A DNA stretch of 13,704 bases, taken from Planctomycetota bacterium. GTDB lineage: Bacteria; Planctomycetota; Brocadiia; JAJRTI01. Position 1 is the first letter of the stretch, and every line of letters starts with the position of its first letter. This document shows, in pieces, positions 1,249-12,030 of the stretch. A program made the position numbers and the translations under genes. The DNA lies in the NCBI GenBank assembly GCA_024278415.1, contig JAJRTI010000973.1:1-13704 (forward strand). Direction: 5' to 3'. The notes beneath the pieces are model-generated. The model was not told the DNA's origin. It did not search any database and saw only the letters and a program-made list of their open reading frames with translations.

Positions 1249-2868
1249 TTACACGACCGCGGCTTCGACCTTCTCTGCGTCTTCGTCGTCGTCGTATTCG
1301 GTCACCATCACGTCGGTTGTCAGCAGCAGGCTGGCGATGCTGGCCGCGTTCTGGAGCGCGCAGCGGGTGACCTTGGTGGGGTCGACGATGCCGGCCTTGA
1401 GCATGTCCACATACTCGCCGGTAGCGGCGTCGAAGCCCACGTTTCCAGCCTTCTCTTCAACCGCCGCGGCAACGACCGAGCCGTTGTGGCCGGCGTTCAT
1501 GGCGATTTGCTTCAGGGGGGCGACGAGGGTGCGGAACGCGATGTCCGCGCCGAGCTTCTCGTCTCCCCTGAGCTTCTTGCGCAACTCAGGGATGACGCTT
1601 CGTGCGCGCAGGAGGGCCACTCCGCCGCCGGGGATGACGCCTTCCTCGGTGGCCGCTCGGGTCGCGTGCAGTGCGTCCTCGACGCGGGCCTTGCGCTCGT
1701 TCATCTCGGCCTCGGTCGCGGCGCCGACGTTGATGACGGCCACGCCGCCGGCGAGCTTGGCCAGGCGCTCTTGGAGCTTCTCACGGTCGTAGTCCGACGT
1801 GGTCTCCTCGATCTGGCGCTTGATCAGCTCGATACGGGCCTTGATGTCGGCGGTCTTGCCGGCGCCTTCGATGATGGTCGTGTTGTCCTTGTCGATGACG
1901 ACCTTCTTCGCGGTGCCGAGCATGTTGATCTCGATGTCCTCGATCTTGATGCCGAGGTCTTCTGAGATGTACTGGCCGCCGGTGAGCACGGCGATGTCTT
2001 GGAGCATGGCCTTGCGCCGGTCGCCAAAGCCCGGGGCCTTGATCGCGGCGCAGTTCAGCACGCCGCGGAGCCGGTTCACGACGAGCGCGGCCAGGGCCTC
2101 GCCTTCGACCTCTTCGCTGATGACGAGGAAGGGCTTGCCGGACGTGGCGACCTTCTCGAGCAGCGGCACGAAGTCTTTCAGGTTGCTGATCTTCTTCTCG
2201 TGGATGAGGATGAGGGGATCCTCGAACTCCACTTCCATGGTCTGGGCGTTCGTGATGAAGTAGGGCGACTGGTAGCCCTTGTCGAACTGCATGCCTTCGA
2301 CCACTTCAAGCGTCGTCTCGAGGCTCTTGCCTTCCTCGACCGTGATGACGCCGTCCTTGCCGACCTTCTCCATCGCATCCGCGAGCAACTCGCCGATGGT
2401 GCTGTCGCTGTTCGCGGCGATGGTGCCGACCTGCGCGATGTCCTCGCGCGTCTTGACGGGTTTGCTCATCTCGCCGAGCTTCTCGCACACGGCCGCGACG
2501 CACTTCTCGATGCCGCGCTTGAGCGACATGGCGTTGGCGCCGGCCGTGACGCTTTTGAGGCCGTCGTCGAAGATGGCCTGCGCGAGCACGGTCGCGGTCG
2601 TGGTGCCGTCGCCGGCGGTGTCGCTCGTCTTGGACGCGACTTGGTTGACGAGCTTCGCGCCCATGTTCTCGAACGGGTCGGGCAACTCGATCTCCTTGGA
2701 CACGGTCACGCCGTCTTTGGTGACTTTAGGCGCGCCGTAGCTTTTTTCAAGGATCACGTTCTTGCCCGTGGGGCCCATGGTCACCTTGACGGCGTCCGCG
2801 AGCCGTGCGACGCCCTTTTGCATTTTCTTTCGGGCGTCGATGTCAAACAGTAGTTGTTTAGCCGCCAT
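1249..2868 (-). CDS. groEL: Chaperonin GroEL, paralogue without the GGM tail (third gene of operon)
   Basis: This 539-residue protein is colinear with E. coli GroEL. It is the 60-kDa chaperonin subunit that folds proteins in a double-ring ATP-driven cage in the cytoplasm. Conserved ATP-site residues are present: D52 in KDGVTV, D87 in AGDGTTTAT and D398 in [11 protein letters not shown]. In the apical domain the client/GroES-binding positions are Y199, Y203, F204, V234, L237, L259, V263 and V264, close to the canonical set. The C-terminus ends in an acidic stretch ([15 protein letters not shown]), not the usual Gly-Gly-Met repeats. The frame stays open 29 codons upstream to 2955, but the start at 2868 gives the family N-terminus MAAKQ and has a GGGAG ribosome site nine bases before it. 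It follows groES by 93 bases in the same operon and ends before a strong terminator. Confidence 0.97.
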
Positions 2869-2961
2869 GGCTATGATCTCCCGATGATGAGGAAATGACT
2901 GATCCAGGTAGGCCAGCAGGAATGGGCGCGGGGTGCGAGCCCTGCGCCGAGGCATGGGAGC

Positions 2962-3249
2962 CTATTCCATTTTGGCCAGGACGTCGTTTTCCTTCATGAT
3001 GAGGTATTCTTTGCCGTCGTGTTCGACCTCGGTACCGCCATACTTGGCGTAGAGCACGACGTCGCCCTTCTTCACGCAGACTTCGGCGCGCTCGCCGTTG
3101 TCCAGCCGTTTGCCGGGGCCTACGGCCACGACCTTGCCTTGCTGGGGCTTTTCCTTGGCCGAGTCCGGGAGCACGATGCCGCCGGCGGTCTTTTCTTCAG
3201 CCTCGAGGGGCTCAACCAGAATCCTGTCGTCCATGGGTTTGATGGCCAC
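2962..3249 (-). CDS. groES: Co-chaperonin GroES
   Basis: The 95-residue product is the 10-kDa heptameric lid of the GroEL cage. It has the mobile loop around residues 16-33 with the GGIVL contact motif (23-27), the VVAVGPG segment (40-46) and the conserved ending KENDVLAK. Length is normal for the family. The start is GTG at 3249, chosen because a perfect AGGAGG lies seven bases upstream and because [15 protein letters not shown] matches the expected N-terminus; an ATG at codon 6 would clip the first strand. It is the only groES in the window and sits between two groEL genes, so it probably serves both. It is 86 bases downstream of the first groEL and 93 bases upstream of the second. Confidence 0.97.
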
Positions 3250-3256
3250 GGTATGA

Positions 3257-3262
3257 CCTCCT
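3257..3262 (-). promoter_or_regulatory. Shine-Dalgarno site fixing the GTG start of groES
   Basis: The plus-strand CCTCCT is AGGAGG on the coding strand, seven bases before the GTG at 3249. It is the evidence for preferring this non-ATG start. Confidence 0.8.
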
Positions 3263-3318
3263 GATCGGATGGGATAAGGGGATTGAGATAATCAGTGAGA
3301 ATTGACGTTGGGGTTGTG

Positions 3319-3330
3319 GGCTCGCGAGCC
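3319..3330. repeat. Short perfect palindrome after the first groEL
   Basis: GGCTCGCGAGCC is a 12-bp perfect palindrome starting six bases beyond the groEL stop codon, in the 86-base spacer before groES. As RNA it would give only a four-pair hairpin with a CGCG loop and no T run, so it is at most a weak attenuation or processing site. Confidence 0.4.
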
Positions 3331-3335
3331 GGGCT

Positions 3336-5012
3336 CTACATCATGCCGGGCATGCCACCCATACCGCCCATGCCGCCGCCCATGCCGCCCATACCGTCCA
3401 TGCCGCCGGGGCCGCCTGGAGGCATGGGGGGCTCTTCCTTGGGGATCTCGGTCACGAGGCAGTCGGTGGTGAGCAGGACGCCGGCGATGCTCGCGGCGTT
3501 CTCGATGGCCGAGCGCACGACCTTGGTGGGATCCACGATGCCCGCGGCCACCATGTCGCCATACTCGCCCTTGTCCGCGTCGAAGCCGAACGCTCCGTCG
3601 CCAGCCGTGACTTTGTTGACGACCACGGGGCCTTCGAAGCCGGCGTTTTGGGCAATGGTGTGCAGGGGCACGAGCACGGCCTGCTTCATGATCTCCACGC
3701 CGATGGCTTCGTCGCCGGTGGCCTTGACCTTGTCCAGCGCCTTCGCGGCGCGAATCATGGCCACGCCGCCGCCGGGCACGATGCCCTCTTCGACGGCCGC
3801 GCGGGTCGCGTGTAGCGCGTCCTCGACGCGGGCCTTCTTTTCCTTCATCTCGGCCTCAGTGGCCGCGCCCACGTTGATCTGGGCGACGCCGCCGGCCAGC
3901 TTCGCGAGGCGCTCTTGGAGCTTCTCGCGGTCGTAATCGGAGGTGGTGGTCTCAATCTCGTTGCGGATCTGGTTCACGCGGCCTTGGAGGGCTTCCAGTG
4001 AGCCAGCCCCCTCAATGAGGGTCGTGTTGTCGCTGTCGATGCGCACGAGCTTGGCCGTGCCCAGGTCGTCGAGCGAGAGCGCGTCGAGATCGATGCCCAG
4101 ATCCTTAAAGACGGCCTGGCCGTCGGTGAGGATCGCGATGTCTTCCATCATGGCCTTGCGCCGGTCGCCATATCCGGGGGCCTTGACCGCGGCGCACTGG
4201 AGCACTCCCTTGAGCTTGTTCACCACGAGCGCGGCCAGGGCCTCGCCCTCGATGTCTTCCGCGATGATGAGCAGGGGCTTGCTCGCCTTCGCGCACTTCT
4301 CCATGATCGGCACGATGTCCTTGACGCTGGAAATCTTCTCCTCATGGATGAGGATGTAAGGATTCTCCAACTCGCAGACCATCGCCTCGGGGTCGGTGAC
4401 AAAGTGGGGCGAGAGGTAGCCCCGGTCGAACTGCATGCCTTCGACCACGTCCACGTTCGTGTCGAGGCTCTTGCCTTCCTCGACCGTGATGACGCCGTCC
4501 TTGCCGACCTTGTCCATGGCCTCGGCGATCATCTTGCCGATCTCGACGTCGTTGTTCGCCGCGATGGAGCCGATGCTGGCCACGTCGGCCGAGTCCTTGA
4601 TGGGCTTGCTGATGTTCGCAAGCTCCGCCACGAGTGCGTCCACGGCCTTCTTGATGCCCCGGTTGATGCCCATGGCATCGGTCCCGGCGGTCACGTTGCG
4701 CAGGGCGCCGAGGAAGATGGCCTCGGCCAGGACGGTCGCGGTCGTGGTGCCGTCGCCGGCCACGTCGCTCGTCTTGGACGCCACTTCCTTCAAGAGCTGC
4801 GCGGCCATGTTCTCTTCGGGGTCGTGCAGCTCGATCTCTTCGGCTACGGTCACGCCGTCCTTGGTCACGGTGGGGGCGCCGTAGCCCTTGTCCAGGACAG
4901 CATTACGACCGCGCGGTCCGAGGGTCGACTTGACGGCACGCGCCATCTTGGTCACGCCTGCTCGGACGGCTTGCCTGGCTTCCGCTTCGAAAGCCAAATT
5001 CTTTGCGGCCAT
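3336..5012 (-). CDS. groEL: Chaperonin GroEL, paralogue with Met/Gly/Pro-rich tail (first gene of operon)
   Basis: This 558-residue chaperonin is the promoter-proximal gene of the cluster. The start at 5012 has AGGAGG nine bases upstream and gives MAAKN. D52, D87 and D398 of the ATPase site are all present, as is the [12 protein letters not shown] segment. The apical binding surface differs from the other copy: residue 203 is His instead of Tyr and residue 237 is Met instead of Leu, while Y199, F204, V234, L259, V263 and V264 are kept. The C-terminus has a long tail from about residue 528 rich in Pro, Gly and Met, including GGM repeats and ending GMPGMM. Such tails project into the folding chamber in characterised GroELs. 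The two GroELs are clearly diverged along their length, so this is an old duplication and not a recent one. Different client ranges are an inference. Confidence 0.97.
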
Positions 5013-5581: not shown

Positions 5582-5650
5582 TTACGCGTCTTGTGCGTCC
5601 GGGCGTCGTCGCCTGCATCGTGGTCGTATCGGAGGGCTTCCCCGTCCTCA

Positions 5651-6970
5651 ATGGAAGGCATGCTCGCATATCTCATCGGTTTGGGTGCGCTGTTGCTGCT
5701 CTCGGCCTTTTTCTCCGGCTCTGAGACGGCGCTTTTTTCGCTGAGCCGCGCGCGGGTGCGGCAACTGCGCGATTCGGGCTCTCGCTCCGGGGCTATTATC
5801 GGGGAACTGCTGGAACAGCCGCGCAAGCTGCTCATCACCATCCTCGTGGGCAACATGTGCGTCAACGTCGCGACCGCCGCGATTTTGGCGGGGTTAGCGA
5901 AGCGGTTGCTGGGCGACCAGGGCATTGGCGCGGCGATTTTCGTTACGACCTTCCTTCTCCTCATCGCCGGCGAGGTCACGCCCAAGACCCTGGCCGTACG
6001 GCACGCGGAGGGATTCGCCGCGTTTAGTGCGCGTCCCCTGCGGCTCTTCGCCAACGTCATCTGGCCGCTGCGCGTCCTCCTGCGGGGCATCACCTCGGCC
6101 ATCCTCTTCCTCCTCCGGCAGGGCCGCGTGCAAAGCGACAGCATCGTCACGCGCGACGATCTTCAGGCGATCGTGAAGGCCGGCGCGGCCGAGGGCGTTG
6201 TGGAGGAGCACGAGACGGAGATCGTGGAGAACATCTTCGAGTTTCGGGACATCAACGCGCACGAGATCATGACGCCCCGGACCCAACTCGTCAGCATCGA
6301 TGAGACGCGGACACTCCGCGACGCGCTGACGCTGGCCTGCCAGTCGGAGCACTCACGCATCCCCGTGCACAAGGACACCGAAGACCAGTTGTGGGGCGTG
6401 TTCCACGTCAAGGATTTGCCGGCGTGGGCGGGGCACGACGTGCTGGACATGACGGTGAGAGAGTTTGTGGCGTACCGTGACGGATTGGCGGATACCCCGC
6501 GCTTCCCGCTCTTGCACGAGGCGTATCTGGCCCCGGAGACGACCCACATCGACTTGCTCTTCGAGACCATGCGCAGCCGGCGCACGCACATGGCCGTGCT
6601 GCTCGACGAGTACGGCGGCACGGCCGGGATCGTGACACTGAGCGACCTGCTGGAGCAGCTTGTGGGAGAAATGGCCGACGACGAGCAGGAGGACCGAGAC
6701 TACGTGCGCAAGGGCGACGTGGTCATGGCCGCGGGGCAGGCCAAGATTCGCGACCTCAATGACGACATGGAGCTTGGCATACCTCTAGGCGTGGCCGACA
6801 CGGTCGCCGGGTACGTGCTCGAGCTGGTGGGCGACTTCCCGAAGGTCGGCCAAGTGGTGTGCGACGGCGTGTTCGAGTTCAGAGTCGTCGAGGCGTCGCC
6901 CACGCGGATCGACCGCGTCGAGATTCGGCCGTGGCCCGCGCCTGAGGCCCGCGAGGGGGGCGAGCCATGA
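5651..6970 (+). CDS. CNNM/CorC-family membrane protein with CBS pair (first of two)
   Basis: The 439-residue protein has the full architecture of the HlyC/CorC (CNNM) family. A transmembrane DUF21/CNNM domain (about 1-155) carries FFSGSETAL (20-28) and AGEVTPK (106-112). A CBS pair (about 204-338) has EIMTPRTQLVSID and DEYGGTAGIVTLSDLLEQLVGE. A C-terminal CorC_HlyC domain covers about 350-428. The best-studied relatives are inner-membrane Mg2+/Co2+ export or homeostasis proteins controlled by nucleotide binding to the CBS pair. The frame opens 20 codons earlier at 5591, but the ATG at 5651 begins the membrane domain as in the family; GGAGGG lies 14 bases upstream, a long spacing. Its last codons overlap the next gene by 4 bases. 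The older label 'hemolysin' should not be taken literally. Confidence 0.93.
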   Translation: MEGMLAYLIGLGALLLLSAFFSGSETALFSLSRARVRQLRDSGSRSGAIIGELLEQPRKLLITILVGNMCVNVATAAILAGLAKRLLGDQGIGAAIFVTTFLLLIAGEVTPKTLAVRHAEGFAAFSARPLRLFANVIWPLRVLLRGITSAILFLLRQGRVQSDSIVTRDDLQAIVKAGAAEGVVEEHETEIVENIFEFRDINAHEIMTPRTQLVSIDETRTLRDALTLACQSEHSRIPVHKDTEDQLWGVFHVKDLPAWAGHDVLDMTVREFVAYRDGLADTPRFPLLHEAYLAPETTHIDLLFETMRSRRTHMAVLLDEYGGTAGIVTLSDLLEQLVGEMADDEQEDRDYVRKGDVVMAAGQAKIRDLNDDMELGIPLGVADTVAGYVLELVGDFPKVGQVVCDGVFEFRVVEASPTRIDRVEIRPWPAPEAREGGEP

Positions 6971-8241
6971 CGGGCATCGAGGTCATGCTACTCATCGGGG
7001 TGGTCGTCTTCCTGTTCACCGAGAGTTTCTTCTCCGGATCCGAGACCGCTATTGTGTCGGCCGACCGCGCGCAACTGCGCGCGGCCGCGCTCGAAGGCGA
7101 CCCACGCGCAACCGTGGCGGAACGGCTGCTGTCGCGCGTCGAGACGGTCCTCGGCACGACGCTCGTCGGCACGAACTTCGCCGTCTCGACCTCCACGTCC
7201 CTGGCTTCACTGCTCGTCGCGCACTACGTTCCCCAGCAATGGGAGACGCTCGCCACGACGGCCGTCATGACGCCGTTGATTCTCATCTTCGGCGAGATCG
7301 TCCCCAAGTCGATCTGCCGCGCCAATGCGTACCGGCTGACCCTCTTCATCGCCCGGCCGTTGCGCTACGCACAGCTTGGCCTCTATCCGTTCGTGTGGTT
7401 CGTGAGCAAGGTTGCGGACCGGCTGCTGCGCGTGGTCGGGGCCGGCAAGATCGATACGGAGCACAGCCTCAGCCGCGAGGAACTGGTCGTGCTGGCTGAG
7501 ATTAGCCAAGAGCACGGCGCGCTCGCGCCCCAAGAGCGCCGCATGATCGAACGCCTCTTCGCGCTGAACGAACGCCCAGTGAGCACGGCCATGGTGCCGC
7601 TTGTCGACGTGGCCGCGGTCGACGCCACGGCCCCCTGCAACGCGGTCAAGGAGTTGGCCGCGCGGACGGGTTTCGCGCGCTTCCCGGTGTATGAAGGCCG
7701 CGTCGACAACATTGTGGGCATCGTCGCGCTGGTGGACGTGCTGTTCGCGGAAGCTCGCGGGGAGGACACGGCCGAGTCGGGGCTCGCGCCGTTCATCCGG
7801 CGCGATGTGATGTTCGTGCCGGAGACCAAGCCCATCGGCCCGCTGCTGCGCGAGTTGCAGACCAGCCGCACGCCCATGGTCGTGGTGGTCGACGAACACG
7901 GGGGCGTCGTCGGCATGGTGTCGCGGGAGGACATCGTCGAGGAAGTGGTAGGCGACATCCGCGACGAGCGCGACCGCGCGCCGACGCTCGTCTCGACGCA
8001 GGGCGGCCGCGCATTCGAGTGCGAGGGCCGGATGGAGATCGACGACCTGGCGGCCGCGCTCGAAATCACAATCGACAAGGAGGGGTTCGAGACGGTTTCG
8101 GGACTCGTGATGAAGCTCGCGGGCCGCATCCCCCAAGCCGGCGATACGTTCGAGTTCGAGGGCACGCGCATCGAGGTGCTCGACGCGGACCGACGCCGCG
8201 TCAAGCGCGTACGGTTCGTGAGGGAGACGGAAGGGGAGTGA
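6967..8241 (+). CDS. CNNM/CorC-family membrane protein with CBS pair (second of two)
   Basis: The ATG lies inside the end of the preceding gene (ATGA overlap), so the two are translationally coupled. The 424-residue product has the same domain order: CNNM membrane domain (about 1-155) with FFSGSETAIV (21-30) and FGEIVPKS (108-115), CBS pair (about 205-330) with DEHGGVVGMVSREDIVEEVVGD, and CorC_HlyC domain (about 340-420). The first CBS entry reads TAMVPLVDVAAVD, so the usual MTPR sequence of the first copy is lost, suggesting altered nucleotide or regulatory behaviour. Sequence identity between the two appears modest apart from the motifs, so they are old paralogues. Paired CNNM genes of this sort may form a hetero-dimeric transporter; that is inference. 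It ends 27 bases from the end of a convergent gene. Confidence 0.93.
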   Translation: MTGIEVMLLIGVVVFLFTESFFSGSETAIVSADRAQLRAAALEGDPRATVAERLLSRVETVLGTTLVGTNFAVSTSTSLASLLVAHYVPQQWETLATTAVMTPLILIFGEIVPKSICRANAYRLTLFIARPLRYAQLGLYPFVWFVSKVADRLLRVVGAGKIDTEHSLSREELVVLAEISQEHGALAPQERRMIERLFALNERPVSTAMVPLVDVAAVDATAPCNAVKELAARTGFARFPVYEGRVDNIVGIVALVDVLFAEARGEDTAESGLAPFIRRDVMFVPETKPIGPLLRELQTSRTPMVVVVDEHGGVVGMVSREDIVEEVVGDIRDERDRAPTLVSTQGGRAFECEGRMEIDDLAAALEITIDKEGFETVSGLVMKLAGRIPQAGDTFEFEGTRIEVLDADRRRVKRVRFVRETEGE

Positions 8242-8268: not shown

Positions 8269-11109
8269 TCACCCCGCCGCGATGACCGGCTGCCCCTCGA
8301 TGGAGCCCTCCACGACCATCTCGAGGAACACCTGCTCCCCAGTCGCGAGCTTGCCCTCCCGCTCGTTCACGCGCAGAAGAATGCCCGCCGTGTCCGTGCC
8401 GTAGAGCGGCGCCTTGCGCTGGAGGATCGTGGCGATGGCGCGCTCCGCGTACGTGCGCGCGTCGGCGATGGTCTCGAACTCACGCTTCTCCTGCGACGTG
8501 TGCACGAGGTAGTCGCCCACGTCGCTCGGGCGAATGGTCGCCCGCTCGGACACGACGACCTTGCTCGTGATCGCACCGATCGCGTTCGCCACGTCCGCGT
8601 GCTCCGGGATGAGCACCTGGGCCGAGAGGAGTTCGGCCACGGCCGGCATGAAGGACTGCGCCGGCGCGCCGATGCCCACGATGGGCTTGCCCACCTCGAA
8701 ACGGCACGCAAACTCGTCGCCGCGCTTGCCCTCGAATAAGTTGTCGAGGAACAACCGGCACACGTCGCAGGATTCGAGCGCTTTGGGATCGGCGGACAGG
8801 CTCACGTAGCGCCGAATGATCTCCATGCTCAGCCGGCGCACGATCTCTCGGCGAATGCGCTCCGCAACCTCCTGGGCCGGCTGATGGAGGATCGTGGCGA
8901 GGATCTCCATCGCCTTGGCGGCCGCGCCTCGGTCCCAAGCCACGTACTCGCCGTCGTAGTGGAGCACGTACGTCGGCGTGGCTGCGGCGCGGCGCACGTA
9001 GCCCAACTCCTCGAGGCGCTTCGTGCGCAGCAGCGACGGCGCCATGTAACCAAGCTGGCGCGTGAGGTCCAGGCGCGAGCGCGGGCCATGGGCCAGTGCG
9101 TCCGCGATCTCGCGCTCGCGTTCGTCCAAGTGCGCGCGGCCGTTCGCCTGCACGAGCACGAAGAAGTCGAGGTGGTCGAGCGTGGGCGGGCTGTGCTCGG
9201 CCGCGGCGAGCACGCGGTCCAACTCCTCTTCCACGTGTTCGGATTGGCTGGCCAGATACGCCAGCGGCACCACGCGTTGGGGGCCAAGCGTCATGTTGCC
9301 ATCGCGGTCGAGGCTCACGAGGCTGTCGCCGCCCAGGCCGGTCGTGAGCATGTCCACCGCGTCGACGCTCGTGCGCCATGGGCCGACTTGCGCGCCTTCG
9401 GGGCTCACCGCGACGCGGCCGTCCTTGATCAGCGCGGTGTCGGTGGTCGTGCCGCCCATGTCGATGGCCACGGCCTCTTTCTCGCCGGTGAGGAACACCG
9501 CGCCGGTCGCGCTCGCGGCGGGGCCGGACAGAATCGTCTCGATGGGCCGCTGCCGCGCGACGCTCTCGCTCACGAGCGTGCCGTCACCCTTGACGACCAT
9601 GACGGCCGCGTCGATGCCGAGGTGGCGCAGCGCGGCCTTGACCGAATCGATGAGCGACTGGATGACCGGCAGCAGCTTCGCATTCAACGCCGCGGTGTGG
9701 GCGCGCTTGATGAAGTCGAGCCGCGACGACAGTTCGTGGCCGCAGACGACGGGCACGGGCTCCGCTCCGGCCGCCTGCGCCACGTCCGCCACGAGCGCCT
9801 TGAGCCGCAGTTCGTGCTTGGGGTTCATCGTGCCGCCAAAGCCGGAGATTGCGATCGCGTCGACGTGGTCCTCGCCGATGAGCCGGGCGATGGCCTGGCG
9901 CGCGGCCGTTTCATCAAGCGGCGCGGTCTCGCGGCCGGTGATGTCGATGCGGCCGGGCACGATGCAGAGCGGGTTGACGTTGATCTGCTTCGCCGCACTC
10001 TCCAAGTGCGGCATGAGCAACAGGCCCACGCGGCCGCCGCGGCCCTCGACGATCGCGTTCGTCGCGAGCGTCGTGGACAAGCAGACCATCTCGATCTTGG
10101 CGAACTGATCCGCGTCGAGTTGCTGCACGGACGCCACGATCCCCACGGCGTAGTCGTGCGGCGTCGTGAGCGCCTTGGCCGTGCAGAGCGTCTGCCCGTG
10201 CTCGAAGTCGTACAGCGCGCTGTCGGTGTAAGTCCCTCCCGCGTCGATGCCAAGCCCCAGGCTCGGCCGGCGGGTGGCGGCTGTCTCGGCAGGAGCGCTT
10301 GCGGCCACTTCGATGATCTCATGGACCGGTCCCGACTGGCTCGTCACGTCGCTCCGCCGCTCCATGGGCACGGATTCGAACAGGTCGTTTTTGCCGGAGC
10401 CGATGACCTTGTGTCCCGGTGGCACGACGAGGAAATCGTCCCGCGGCCAGTCGCCGGCGAGGAGCATCTCGATCAGACGCAAGCTCCCCTGGAGGCGCTC
10501 GAACTCCCAGCCGACCTCGTCCGCGATCTCGCGCGTATACTCCGCGTACGTCTCGATCTCGCCCAAGCCATGGTCGATAAACGCGGCGCGGGAGTAGTTC
10601 TTCTTCCACTGGTCGAAGAAGCGCACGATGTACGCGGCGTTGTCGTCGCCAAAGCGCTTCGCGTAGCCGGCAAACTTCGGGTTTTGGCGCACCGCGGCCT
10701 CGTCGTCGAGCTTGCGCATCTTCATCTGCGGGCCGGACTTTTTCTCGAACCAGCCGGAGGTGATGTAGTACGTGCCGGGGTGTTCCGCGAACTGTCGGCG
10801 GTATTCGTGCCGCGAGCCGAGGAAGATCGCGATGCAGTCGTGTGCGCGGGGAATGACGATCGGCTTGGATTTGGCGCGCAGGCCCACGATGCCGCGGCCG
10901 CACATGCCGTAGCACAGCAGCACCGCGTCGAGCGGCTCCACGTCCGCCCGGTCGATGGCCTCCTGCGCGCGGCGGCGTAGTTCGTTGGGCGCGGCGTGCA
11001 AGCCGGCGTCGAGCAGTTCGATCTCGATTTCGTTTTCACAGCGCTCTGCCGCGGCTCGCAGTTCGCGGTCGAACACACCGCAGGCCAGCGCTTTCAGTCG
11101 TTGAGGCAT
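8269..11109 (-). CDS. DUF1638 fused to a hydantoinase/oxoprolinase-type ASKHA ATPase
   Basis: The 946-residue protein joins two families. Residues 1-235 match DUF1638: GVFDREL (11-17), the GLH motif (36-38), CYGMCGRGIVGL (66-77), IPRAHDCIAIFLGSR (86-100) and GTYYITSGW (112-120). After a linker, residues 283-946 match hydantoinase/N-methylhydantoinase A. LGIDAGGTYTDSAL (286-299) and VAIDMGGTTTDTAL (547-560) are the two phosphate-binding motifs, LSTTLATNAIVEGRGGRVG (344-362) is a family signature, and GIGAPAQSF (812-820) is near the adenosine motif. A segment at about 660-715 resembles a winged helix. The ATPase fold looks complete. The reaction is unknown: no HyuB-like partner lies next to it, so a classical hydantoinase or oxoprolinase is not supported. 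DUF1638 genes occur, from memory, near corrinoid methyltransferase genes, so an ATP-driven activator role is possible. The ATG at 11109 has no strong Shine-Dalgarno. Confidence 0.88.
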   Translation of the reverse strand: MPQRLKALACGVFDRELRAAAERCENEIEIELLDAGLHAAPNELRRRAQEAIDRADVEPLDAVLLCYGMCGRGIVGLRAKSKPIVIPRAHDCIAIFLGSRHEYRRQFAEHPGTYYITSGWFEKKSGPQMKMRKLDDEAAVRQNPKFAGYAKRFGDDNAAYIVRFFDQWKKNYSRAAFIDHGLGEIETYAEYTREIADEVGWEFERLQGSLRLIEMLLAGDWPRDDFLVVPPGHKVIGSGKNDLFESVPMERRSDVTSQSGPVHEIIEVAASAPAETAATRRPSLGLGIDAGGTYTDSALYDFEHGQTLCTAKALTTPHDYAVGIVASVQQLDADQFAKIEMVCLSTTLATNAIVEGRGGRVGLLLMPHLESAAKQINVNPLCIVPGRIDITGRETAPLDETAARQAIARLIGEDHVDAIAISGFGGTMNPKHELRLKALVADVAQAAGAEPVPVVCGHELSSRLDFIKRAHTAALNAKLLPVIQSLIDSVKAALRHLGIDAAVMVVKGDGTLVSESVARQRPIETILSGPAASATGAVFLTGEKEAVAIDMGGTTTDTALIKDGRVAVSPEGAQVGPWRTSVDAVDMLTTGLGGDSLVSLDRDGNMTLGPQRVVPLAYLASQSEHVEEELDRVLAAAEHSPPTLDHLDFFVLVQANGRAHLDEREREIADALAHGPRSRLDLTRQLGYMAPSLLRTKRLEELGYVRRAAATPTYVLHYDGEYVAWDRGAAAKAMEILATILHQPAQEVAERIRREIVRRLSMEIIRRYVSLSADPKALESCDVCRLFLDNLFEGKRGDEFACRFEVGKPIVGIGAPAQSFMPAVAELLSAQVLIPEHADVANAIGAITSKVVVSERATIRPSDVGDYLVHTSQEKREFETIADARTYAERAIATILQRKAPLYGTDTAGILLRVNEREGKLATGEQVFLEMVVEGSIEGQPVIAAG

Positions 11110-11127: not shown

Positions 11128-11964
11128 TTATTCTTCGCGAGGCGAATCGGTCGGCTCCGGCGGGCTGGGCTCGCTGGAGTCATCGAGGCCTGGGAGGGGC
11201 GGGAGTGCTGGCGGAGGCTCGGCGTAGCGCGGCACTTGGCTGGCAGGCGGGATGACGCCCCCGGTGATCGTGTAGCGAAATGCCTGGTCGATGGTCATGT
11301 CCAACTCCACGACTTCGCGCTCAGGCACCATGATGACGTAGCCGGTGACGGGCGTGGGCGAGCTGGGGATGAAAATGCTCACCATGCGTTCGCCGGCCGC
11401 GCGGGCCACGTCTCGCATGCCGTCGCCCGTGATGAAACCAATGGAGTAGATGCCCGGCCGCGGGTACTGCACCGCCACGACGCGGTTGAATTTGACCGTC
11501 TCATCGCGGAAGAAGAAGGCCGTGAGTTGCTTCGCATGCGGGTAGATCGTCTTGACCACTGGGAATTGCGTCAGCATGCGGTCGCCGAGCGCGAAGAGCT
11601 TCCTGCCGACGAACGAACGCAGCGTGTGCCCCACGAAGTAGATCGCGACGCACGCGATCACGACGCCGAACAGCGTGCCGATGTAGCCGGGATACTTCTC
11701 ATCGAGGCGCTTGTTGAACTCCTCTTGGTTTTTCACCCATTCCGGTTTCCAATGGAACACGCGCACAAGCATCCGCTTGCCGGCGTCGCTGCGGAACTGC
11801 CGCTTGATGAAGCGGTTCGTGGGCACGCCAATGGAGTTGTCGACAAATTTGTAGATCTGGATGAGGATGAAGATCGTGAGGATGGCCGGAAAGAGGGCGC
11901 CGAGGCCGGCCAAGAACGACCGCCTAAAGTCGGAGCGAAACGTTTCCCTTTTGCTCGCTGCCAT
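11128..11964 (-). CDS. DUF502 (COV-like) membrane protein
   Basis: The 278-residue product belongs to DUF502, a family of bacterial membrane proteins that also includes plant COV proteins; its biochemical role is unknown. Two membrane segments are visible, about residues 17-39 and 92-112. The family signature is IPSSPTPVTGYVIMVP followed by EVVELDMTIDQAFRYTITGGV (199-237). The C-terminal 40 residues are Pro/Ser/Glu-rich and probably disordered. A segment between the helices (50-90) is longer and more basic than I expect for the family. An alternative GTG start at 11988 would add eight residues; the ATG at 11964 is preferred because it begins the usual basic N-terminus, though neither has a strong ribosome site. 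It is the first gene of a two-gene unit, ending 18 bases before the DUF1638 fusion. Confidence 0.88.
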   Translation of the reverse strand: MAASKRETFRSDFRRSFLAGLGALFPAILTIFILIQIYKFVDNSIGVPTNRFIKRQFRSDAGKRMLVRVFHWKPEWVKNQEEFNKRLDEKYPGYIGTLFGVVIACVAIYFVGHTLRSFVGRKLFALGDRMLTQFPVVKTIYPHAKQLTAFFFRDETVKFNRVVAVQYPRPGIYSIGFITGDGMRDVARAAGERMVSIFIPSSPTPVTGYVIMVPEREVVELDMTIDQAFRYTITGGVIPPASQVPRYAEPPPALPPLPGLDDSSEPSPPEPTDSPREE

Positions 11965-12030
11965 GGTGCAAAGCCTGGTCAATGCCACGGAAAGAGTTTG
12001 GGGCCCTCAGGCCGCGCGATTCCACAGCGT

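Follow-up and report, generated by a model that had tools for sequence, protein, structure and literature searches.

Proteins of the domain family DUF1638 have been tied to B12 reactivation in Phaeobacter, where DUF1638 mutants were rescued by methionine and were co-fit with the genes for a RamA-like protein and for methionine synthase (excerpt of PMC5764234). According to the same excerpt, DUF1638 and the RamA-like protein have a near-identical distribution among 158 alpha-proteobacteria, and the authors offer no specific proposal there for the function of DUF1638. In excerpts of other reports, N-osmolytes raised the abundance of DUF1638 and RamA (PMC12478193), a hydantoinase encoded inside the glycine betaine methyltransferase cluster of strain DCMF was, together with that cluster, more abundant on glycine betaine (PMC9768040), DUF1638 was present in one table line (PMC12542648), and nothing on corrinoid reactivation appeared (PMC10327494). 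In the literature we found neither a link of DUF1638 to a hydantoinase-like ATPase nor a report of a fusion of the two. Here, we describe such a fusion, encoded in a 13,704-nt stretch of DNA of a Planctomycetota bacterium (contig JAJRTI010000973.1 of assembly GCA_024278415.1; the whole stretch is referred to as the window), in which DUF1638 is followed in one chain by a HyuA-like ATPase of the ASKHA superfamily. We propose, with a probability of roughly 0.6, that this protein uses ATP to assist RACo-type corrinoid reactivation, often in the service of a split methionine synthase; its client, metal site, and mechanism are what we infer.

The DUF1638 half is of the same domain family as the stand-alone proteins PGA1_c13340 of Phaeobacter and SPO2162 of Ruegeria, which are linked to RamA/RACo and to corrinoid methyl transfer. 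However, the stand-alone proteins consist of a single domain (relatives of about 217–289 aa), whereas the window version is joined to an ATPase, and no ATPase with DUF1638 is mentioned for the Phaeobacter and Ruegeria proteins in the excerpts of the two articles (PMC5764234, PMC12478193). Conversely, the unfused HyuA-like ATPases of amine methyltransferase clusters, such as 'HydA' of Ca. Formimonas warabiya in the excerpt of PMC9768040, carry no DUF1638 in the chain and are often encoded beside genes for MTTB and a corrinoid protein. The ASKHA half of the fusion, including an insert with a TPTD-LH motif, has homologues among the unfused forms, one of them in a Ca. Formimonas warabiya strain (locus L025), which we do not equate with the published 'HydA' gene. 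The ATPase subunits of N-methylhydantoinase and of the acetone and acetophenone carboxylases have PF05378, the first half of PF01968, and the ASKHA fold in common with the fusion, but the region of the fusion protein that would correspond to the second half of PF01968 departs from the Pfam profile, and an intact HyuB is present in 1 of 25 fusion genomes. With RACo/RamA (PF14574), the fusion shares the superfamily and the biological setting; nevertheless, it is of another family, has no iron–sulfur domain match, and coexists with RACo. Reactivases of the MutL/GlmL and diol dehydratase types have adenosylcobalamin mutases or dehydratases as their targets. The window protein stays below the cut-off of the MutL profile (PF13941, 22 bits versus 27), which 7 of 10 relatives exceed (27.4–36.2 bits), and its NCBIfam matches, including caprolactamase, acetophenone carboxylase, GlmL, and MfnF, are all below cut-off. 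Most likely, the fusion protein is not an ordinary hydantoinase and does not stand in for RACo, and the name 'N-methylhydantoinase A' borne by many such fusion homologues is probably misleading.

The fusion is real and conserved. A sequence-only reading of the window had taken it for a true fusion and not a chance read-through, and this was borne out: all 119 other homologues among the matches listed (40–79% identity, 93–100% query coverage) carry both domains in one chain. The search gave at least 1211 proteins at E up to 0.001, with 7999 candidates scored, and the named homologues among the matches listed are from Planctomycetota, Brocadiia, Armatimonadota, Zipacnadales, and Fimbriimonadaceae. 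There was no sign of a frameshift or an assembly join near residues 240–280, as the third-position GC content is 0.77–0.97 throughout the gene and steady over the junction of the two parts. Moreover, DUF1638, which had been placed within residues 1–235, was found by Pfam at residues 33–217 (PF07796, E 9.4e-42, 143.1 bits versus a cut-off of 27), and the ATPase half matched PF05378 (Hydant_A_N; residues 286–440, E 7.7e-31, 107.6 bits) and PF01968 (Hydantoinase_A; residues 469–611, E 5.1e-30, 105.2 bits), both above cut-off. The family motifs that the same reading had seen in both halves are conserved across 33 aligned fusions, and the linker is not. The conserved motifs of the ATPase half include GIDAGGTYTD, DMGGTTTD, GLGGDS, and GIGAP, which we take to have roles in ATP binding.

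The most useful new result is the nested pattern in which RACo, DUF1638, and the ATPase occur. Among 151 genomes of Armatimonadota, RACo was found in 104, DUF1638 in 92, and the ATPase in at least 32, each set being nested in the previous one; the ATPase was counted at E up to 1e-60, no more than 8 candidates being scored in each genome, and some may have been missed. DUF1638 and RACo were present together in 92 genomes, DUF1638 without RACo in 0, RACo alone in 12, and neither in 47 (Fisher p 3e-28, kinship between genomes being ignored). When the 17 intact fusions were left out, these counts were 75, 0, 12, and 47, and 15 of the 15 remaining ATPase genomes had DUF1638 (p 1.5e-4, likewise without regard to kinship, if genome G055 with its broken fusion is left out as well). 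In that genome (G055:C97:22222-24719), DUF1638 and the ATPase match end to end with the ATPase split over two frames, which suggests either a broken fusion or an error in the sequence. RACo was present in all 17 Armatimonadota fusion genomes. Additionally, among 37 genomes of the related loci described below (27 of fusion loci and 10 unfused), RACo_C_ter was found in 36, including 26 of the 27 genomes of fusion loci, and the corrinoid protein domain PF02607 was also found in 36. Because the fusion genomes keep a separate RACo, the fusion appears to be an addition to the reductive activase and not the activase. The reactivation domain of MetH (PF02965) was found in 11 of the 37 genomes, with strong matches only in G019, G021, and G024. 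In Armatimonadota, a strong match (82 bits or more, reached in 84 genomes; lesser matches, which span a short stretch of the profile, were left out of the count) occurred in 36/92 genomes with DUF1638, 48/59 without it, and 3/17 with the fusion; DUF1638 is therefore not a simple substitute for PF02965. By eye, from coordinates, DUF1638 and RACo share a contig and are about 8 kb apart or less in 9 of the 92 genomes (G144, G067, G088, G148, G122, G169, G061, G184, and G115). In G020, G025, G009, and G023, RACo_C_ter lies within unusually long frames (1009–1128 aa), and RACo is possibly fused to another domain there.

To characterize the surroundings of relatives, we took the best 80 of at least 584 found in a profile scan of one genome per GTDB species, which is a non-random sample. 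DUF1638 is in the same open reading frame (ORF) as the ATPase in 28 of these loci (L021 is truncated by the end of its contig, and the matches of L023 and L028 cover the DUF1638 profile incompletely), and 52 have an ATPase without a DUF1638 match in its ORF (including L035, whose ORF starts at a contig end). Clusters of neighbours were named via Pfam matches of their representatives, and the derived profiles were run on all ORFs of the loci; the corrinoid genes sought were those for MTTB, a corrinoid protein (PF02310 with PF02607), a pterin-binding methyltransferase, RACo with its 2Fe-2S domain, and URO-D. A corrinoid methyltransferase gene lies within 8 kb of the unfused ATPase in 27 of the 52 loci, mostly on the same strand, and a stand-alone DUF1638 gene is present in 12 of the 52, in 11 within 8 kb. 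In L050, the order of genes is MTTB, corrinoid protein, DUF1638, MTTB, ATPase, and RACo, and in L032, it is MTTB, ATPase, DUF1638, and pterin-binding methyltransferase. The fusion locus L013 has, on one strand, a BCCT transporter, the fusion, a 508-aa ORF, MTTB, a corrinoid protein, a pterin-binding methyltransferase, and RACo. Since the unfused ATPase loci hold these genes, the stand-alone relatives fit the logic by which a fusion joins proteins that act together elsewhere. Thus, the partnership of the separate proteins that had been predicted from the window gains the support of neighbouring genes, and the predicted tie to corrinoid methyltransferases and RACo was recovered both in these loci and in the Armatimonadota genomes. 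Ten neighbours from nine unfused loci in which none of the sought genes was found were also scanned. In one of them, a gene 3 bp downstream of the ATPase (L073:4407-6182, plus strand) encodes a B12-binding-domain protein of 591 aa, which our profiles had missed and whose relatives are present in three loci. In a Sulfitobacter metagenome-assembled genome (MAG), a gene of QueG type lies directly upstream of the ATPase homologue (L080:4723-5757, plus strand); QueG is epoxyqueuosine reductase, a B12 enzyme. The other neighbours were nothing obviously related.

The fusion loci are spread over Armatimonadota, Thermodesulfobacteriota, Planctomycetota, Lentisphaerota, Spirochaetota, Omnitrophota, Latescibacterota, and Abditibacteriota, with further ones in Acidobacteriota (L023, partial) and in a MAG labelled Myxococcota. 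Named species with the fusion or the unfused pair include Desulfosarcina widdelii (L033), Desulforhopalus singaporensis (L016), and Desulfofustis glycolicus (L069). In a tree of the 80 loci, the window, and one outgroup, built by a quick method with Shimodaira–Hasegawa-like approximate likelihood ratio (SH-aLRT) support only, the label 'fused' needs 5 changes, of which the starred branches force at least 4. The nearest rows to the window are Armatimonadota fusions, and the unfused forms of Bacillota, Chloroflexota, and Proteobacteria are mostly separate. Two tandem ATPase homologues were seen in an archaeal MAG of Methanomassiliicoccus (L036:9923-14042), with corrinoid genes 4–6 kb upstream. 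In Planctomycetota, DUF1638 was found in 23 of 199 genomes, in 4 of them in frames of the size of the fusion (943–952 aa), among which G014 alone is a confirmed fusion.

The likely client was sought in 24 fusion genomes, namely the 17 intact Armatimonadota fusions and 7 others, which had been chosen for a single corrinoid match, so that counts of single matches are to be taken on the 17 alone. PF02607 is present in all 17, with exactly one match in 11. The homocysteine methyltransferase domain PF02574 is present in 17/17 (23/24 in the full set), and a strong PF02965 is absent from 14/17 (21/24 in the full set). Moreover, the corrinoid and RACo domains are no more than 165 bp apart on the same strand in 11 of the 17, and in 3 of the 7 others (G001, G003, and G004). 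In genomes that encode one small corrinoid protein and lack the MetH reactivation domain, these domains point to a split methionine synthase as the most likely client.

The kinship of the ATPase half with hydantoinases could also mean that the fusion is a metabolic enzyme, which would phosphorylate a small-molecule carbonyl (e.g., a breakdown product of methylated amines that feeds the methyltransferases), like N-methylhydantoinase, oxoprolinase, or acetone carboxylase. To our knowledge, all these enzymes need a HyuB-type partner. However, in 25 fusion genomes (the 24 above and G025), PF02538 of HyuB gave no match in 23, a 33-bit fragment in G001, and an intact match in G025, while it was intact in 3/3 genomes tested with the unfused form (G028, G029, and G032). 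The match to PF01968, which covers profile positions 1–145 of 291 in the window protein, halts at 133–147 in this protein and 10 relatives. As the enzyme reading additionally leaves the nesting inside DUF1638 and RACo unexplained, we consider it unlikely. Similarly improbable, in our view, is that the fusion is itself a reductive activase, in which ATP hydrolysis by the ASKHA half would drive electrons to cob(II)alamin via a cluster on the cysteines of DUF1638, in the manner of the activators of 2-hydroxyacyl-CoA dehydratases. What speaks for it is that C10, H38, C70, and C92 are invariant in 39/39 aligned DUF1638 domains, fused and stand-alone, which suggests a possible metal site, and that the structural matches of the ATPase include the activators HgdC/MbdQ/DCCP-R and RACo. 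Nevertheless, neither RACo_C_ter (PF14574) nor a ferredoxin-type iron–sulfur domain (Fer2/Fer4) matched the window protein at E up to 0.01, although a non-ferredoxin cluster in the DUF1638 half may be compatible with the latter result, and a separate RACo accompanies the ATPase or DUF1638 in 36/37 locus genomes and 92/92 Armatimonadota genomes. The energising or repair role like that of RamA/RACo that the sequence-only reading had suggested thus keeps its direction, as a role in corrinoid upkeep is likely, but not its model, as the ATPase is HyuA-like, lacks these matches, and occurs in genomes that keep RACo (26/27 and 17/17).

The least probable account, and a rather remote one, is that of a sensor or regulator, whose ASKHA part binds ATP and a ligand and whose winged-helix-like insert reports corrinoid or methyl status to gene expression. 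The insert region, 66–90 residues long, is kept in fused and unfused relatives and ends in a conserved TPTD-LH motif (TPTY-LH in the window), and the ROK repressor 5f7r is among the fold matches. In contrast, when 10 relatives were searched at E up to 1, no Pfam helix-turn-helix family matched the insert, RsmI_C (E 0.31) lying elsewhere in the chain, and the insert is inside the ATPase and not at its end; it may be a protein–protein interface.

In the accessory role that we prefer, the fusion would work beside the iron–sulfur reductive activase RACo/RamA, not in its place. The DUF1638 half, predicted to be two-lobed and Rossmann-like in a model with a pLDDT (predicted local distance difference test) score of 91.8, would recognise the corrinoid protein (or RACo), and its conserved Cys-His-Cys-Cys set would bind a metal, a cluster, or a thiol ligand. 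In the fusion protein, pLDDT falls below 50 at residues 250–262, within the linker, and at 127–129. The ASKHA half would open and close with ATP, bringing an inactive Co(II) corrinoid protein into a state that RACo can reduce, or, alternatively, it would release a stalled complex. More tentatively, and with some doubt, DUF1638 and the ATPase might make up a third level of corrinoid reactivation that has so far gone unrecognised. DUF1638 would then be a two-lobed protein bearing a metal or a cluster, its Cys-His-Cys-Cys pocket would be operated by an ASKHA ATPase that has abandoned hydantoin chemistry, and the two, with RACo, would keep split methionine synthases and amine methyltransferases in the Co(I) state.

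Several observations weigh against an accessory role in corrinoid reactivation. The 13,704 nt of the window hold no corrinoid genes; the neighbours of the fusion are chaperonins, CNNM transporters, and DUF502. Only 6 of the 28 fusion loci carry a corrinoid methyltransferase gene within 8 kb, and 25 of the 52 loci with an unfused ATPase showed none of the corrinoid genes sought; many of the contigs are short. Among the fusion genomes, G021 lacks a RACo match but has a full PF02965, and the intact HyuB of G025 is a 1268-aa frame far from the fusion. In Armatimonadota, 12 genomes have RACo without DUF1638, 36 of the 92 with DUF1638 keep a strong PF02965, and 60 of the 92 gave no ATPase match, some possibly having been missed, which indicates that DUF1638 can act without the ATPase. 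The co-occurrence P values take no account of kinship, and RACo was counted in this one phylum, Planctomycetota having been searched for DUF1638 only. A single PF02607 was found in only 10 of the 27 genomes of fusion loci (none in 1, several in 16); since fusion genomes of Desulfobacterota mostly hold several corrinoid proteins, other clients are likely there. Finally, the fold search of DUF1638 gave no clear match to any solved protein, and a bound metal is shown by no structure or sequence.

Table 1. Features of the fusion gene and its upstream neighbour in the window.
Feature	Position	Strand	Basis
Fusion gene (DUF1638 and HyuA-like ASKHA ATPase)	8269..11109	minus	intact ORF, 946 aa; ATG start at 11109, stop codon 8269–8271
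DUF1638 half, residues 1–240	10390..11109	minus	Pfam match, alignment of 39 domains, structure model
Variable linker, residues 241–282	10264..10389	minus	alignment and model confidence; partly disordered
ASKHA ATPase half, residues 283–946	8272..10263	minus	Pfam, conserved motifs, fold matches
Insert in ATPase half, residues 660–720	8950..9132	minus	winged-helix look by eye and predicted helices
DUF502 gene	11128..11988	minus	18 bp upstream of fusion start, same strand

The DUF502 gene is possibly co-transcribed with the fusion gene (Table 1), and none of the 80 related loci was found to have DUF502. Two consecutive transporter genes of CNNM/CorC type (5591–8241, plus strand) face the fusion gene. 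Farther away, the minus strand at 1249–5012 carries genes for GroEL, GroES, and GroEL, and one of the GroEL proteins has a Gly/Met-rich tail at its end. Among the matches listed for one GroEL protein (at least 120, few of which bear a name), the named ones are mostly from Planctomycetota and include names of anammox type, which agrees with the phylum given for the window.

Phaeobacter needs DUF1638 to synthesise methionine (excerpt of PMC5764234), and the fusion points to the ATPase as its physical partner. It also provides a single purifiable protein with which the function of DUF1638 can be tested. If the proposed role is true, corrinoid reactivation in many bacteria would have a component beyond RACo/RamA.
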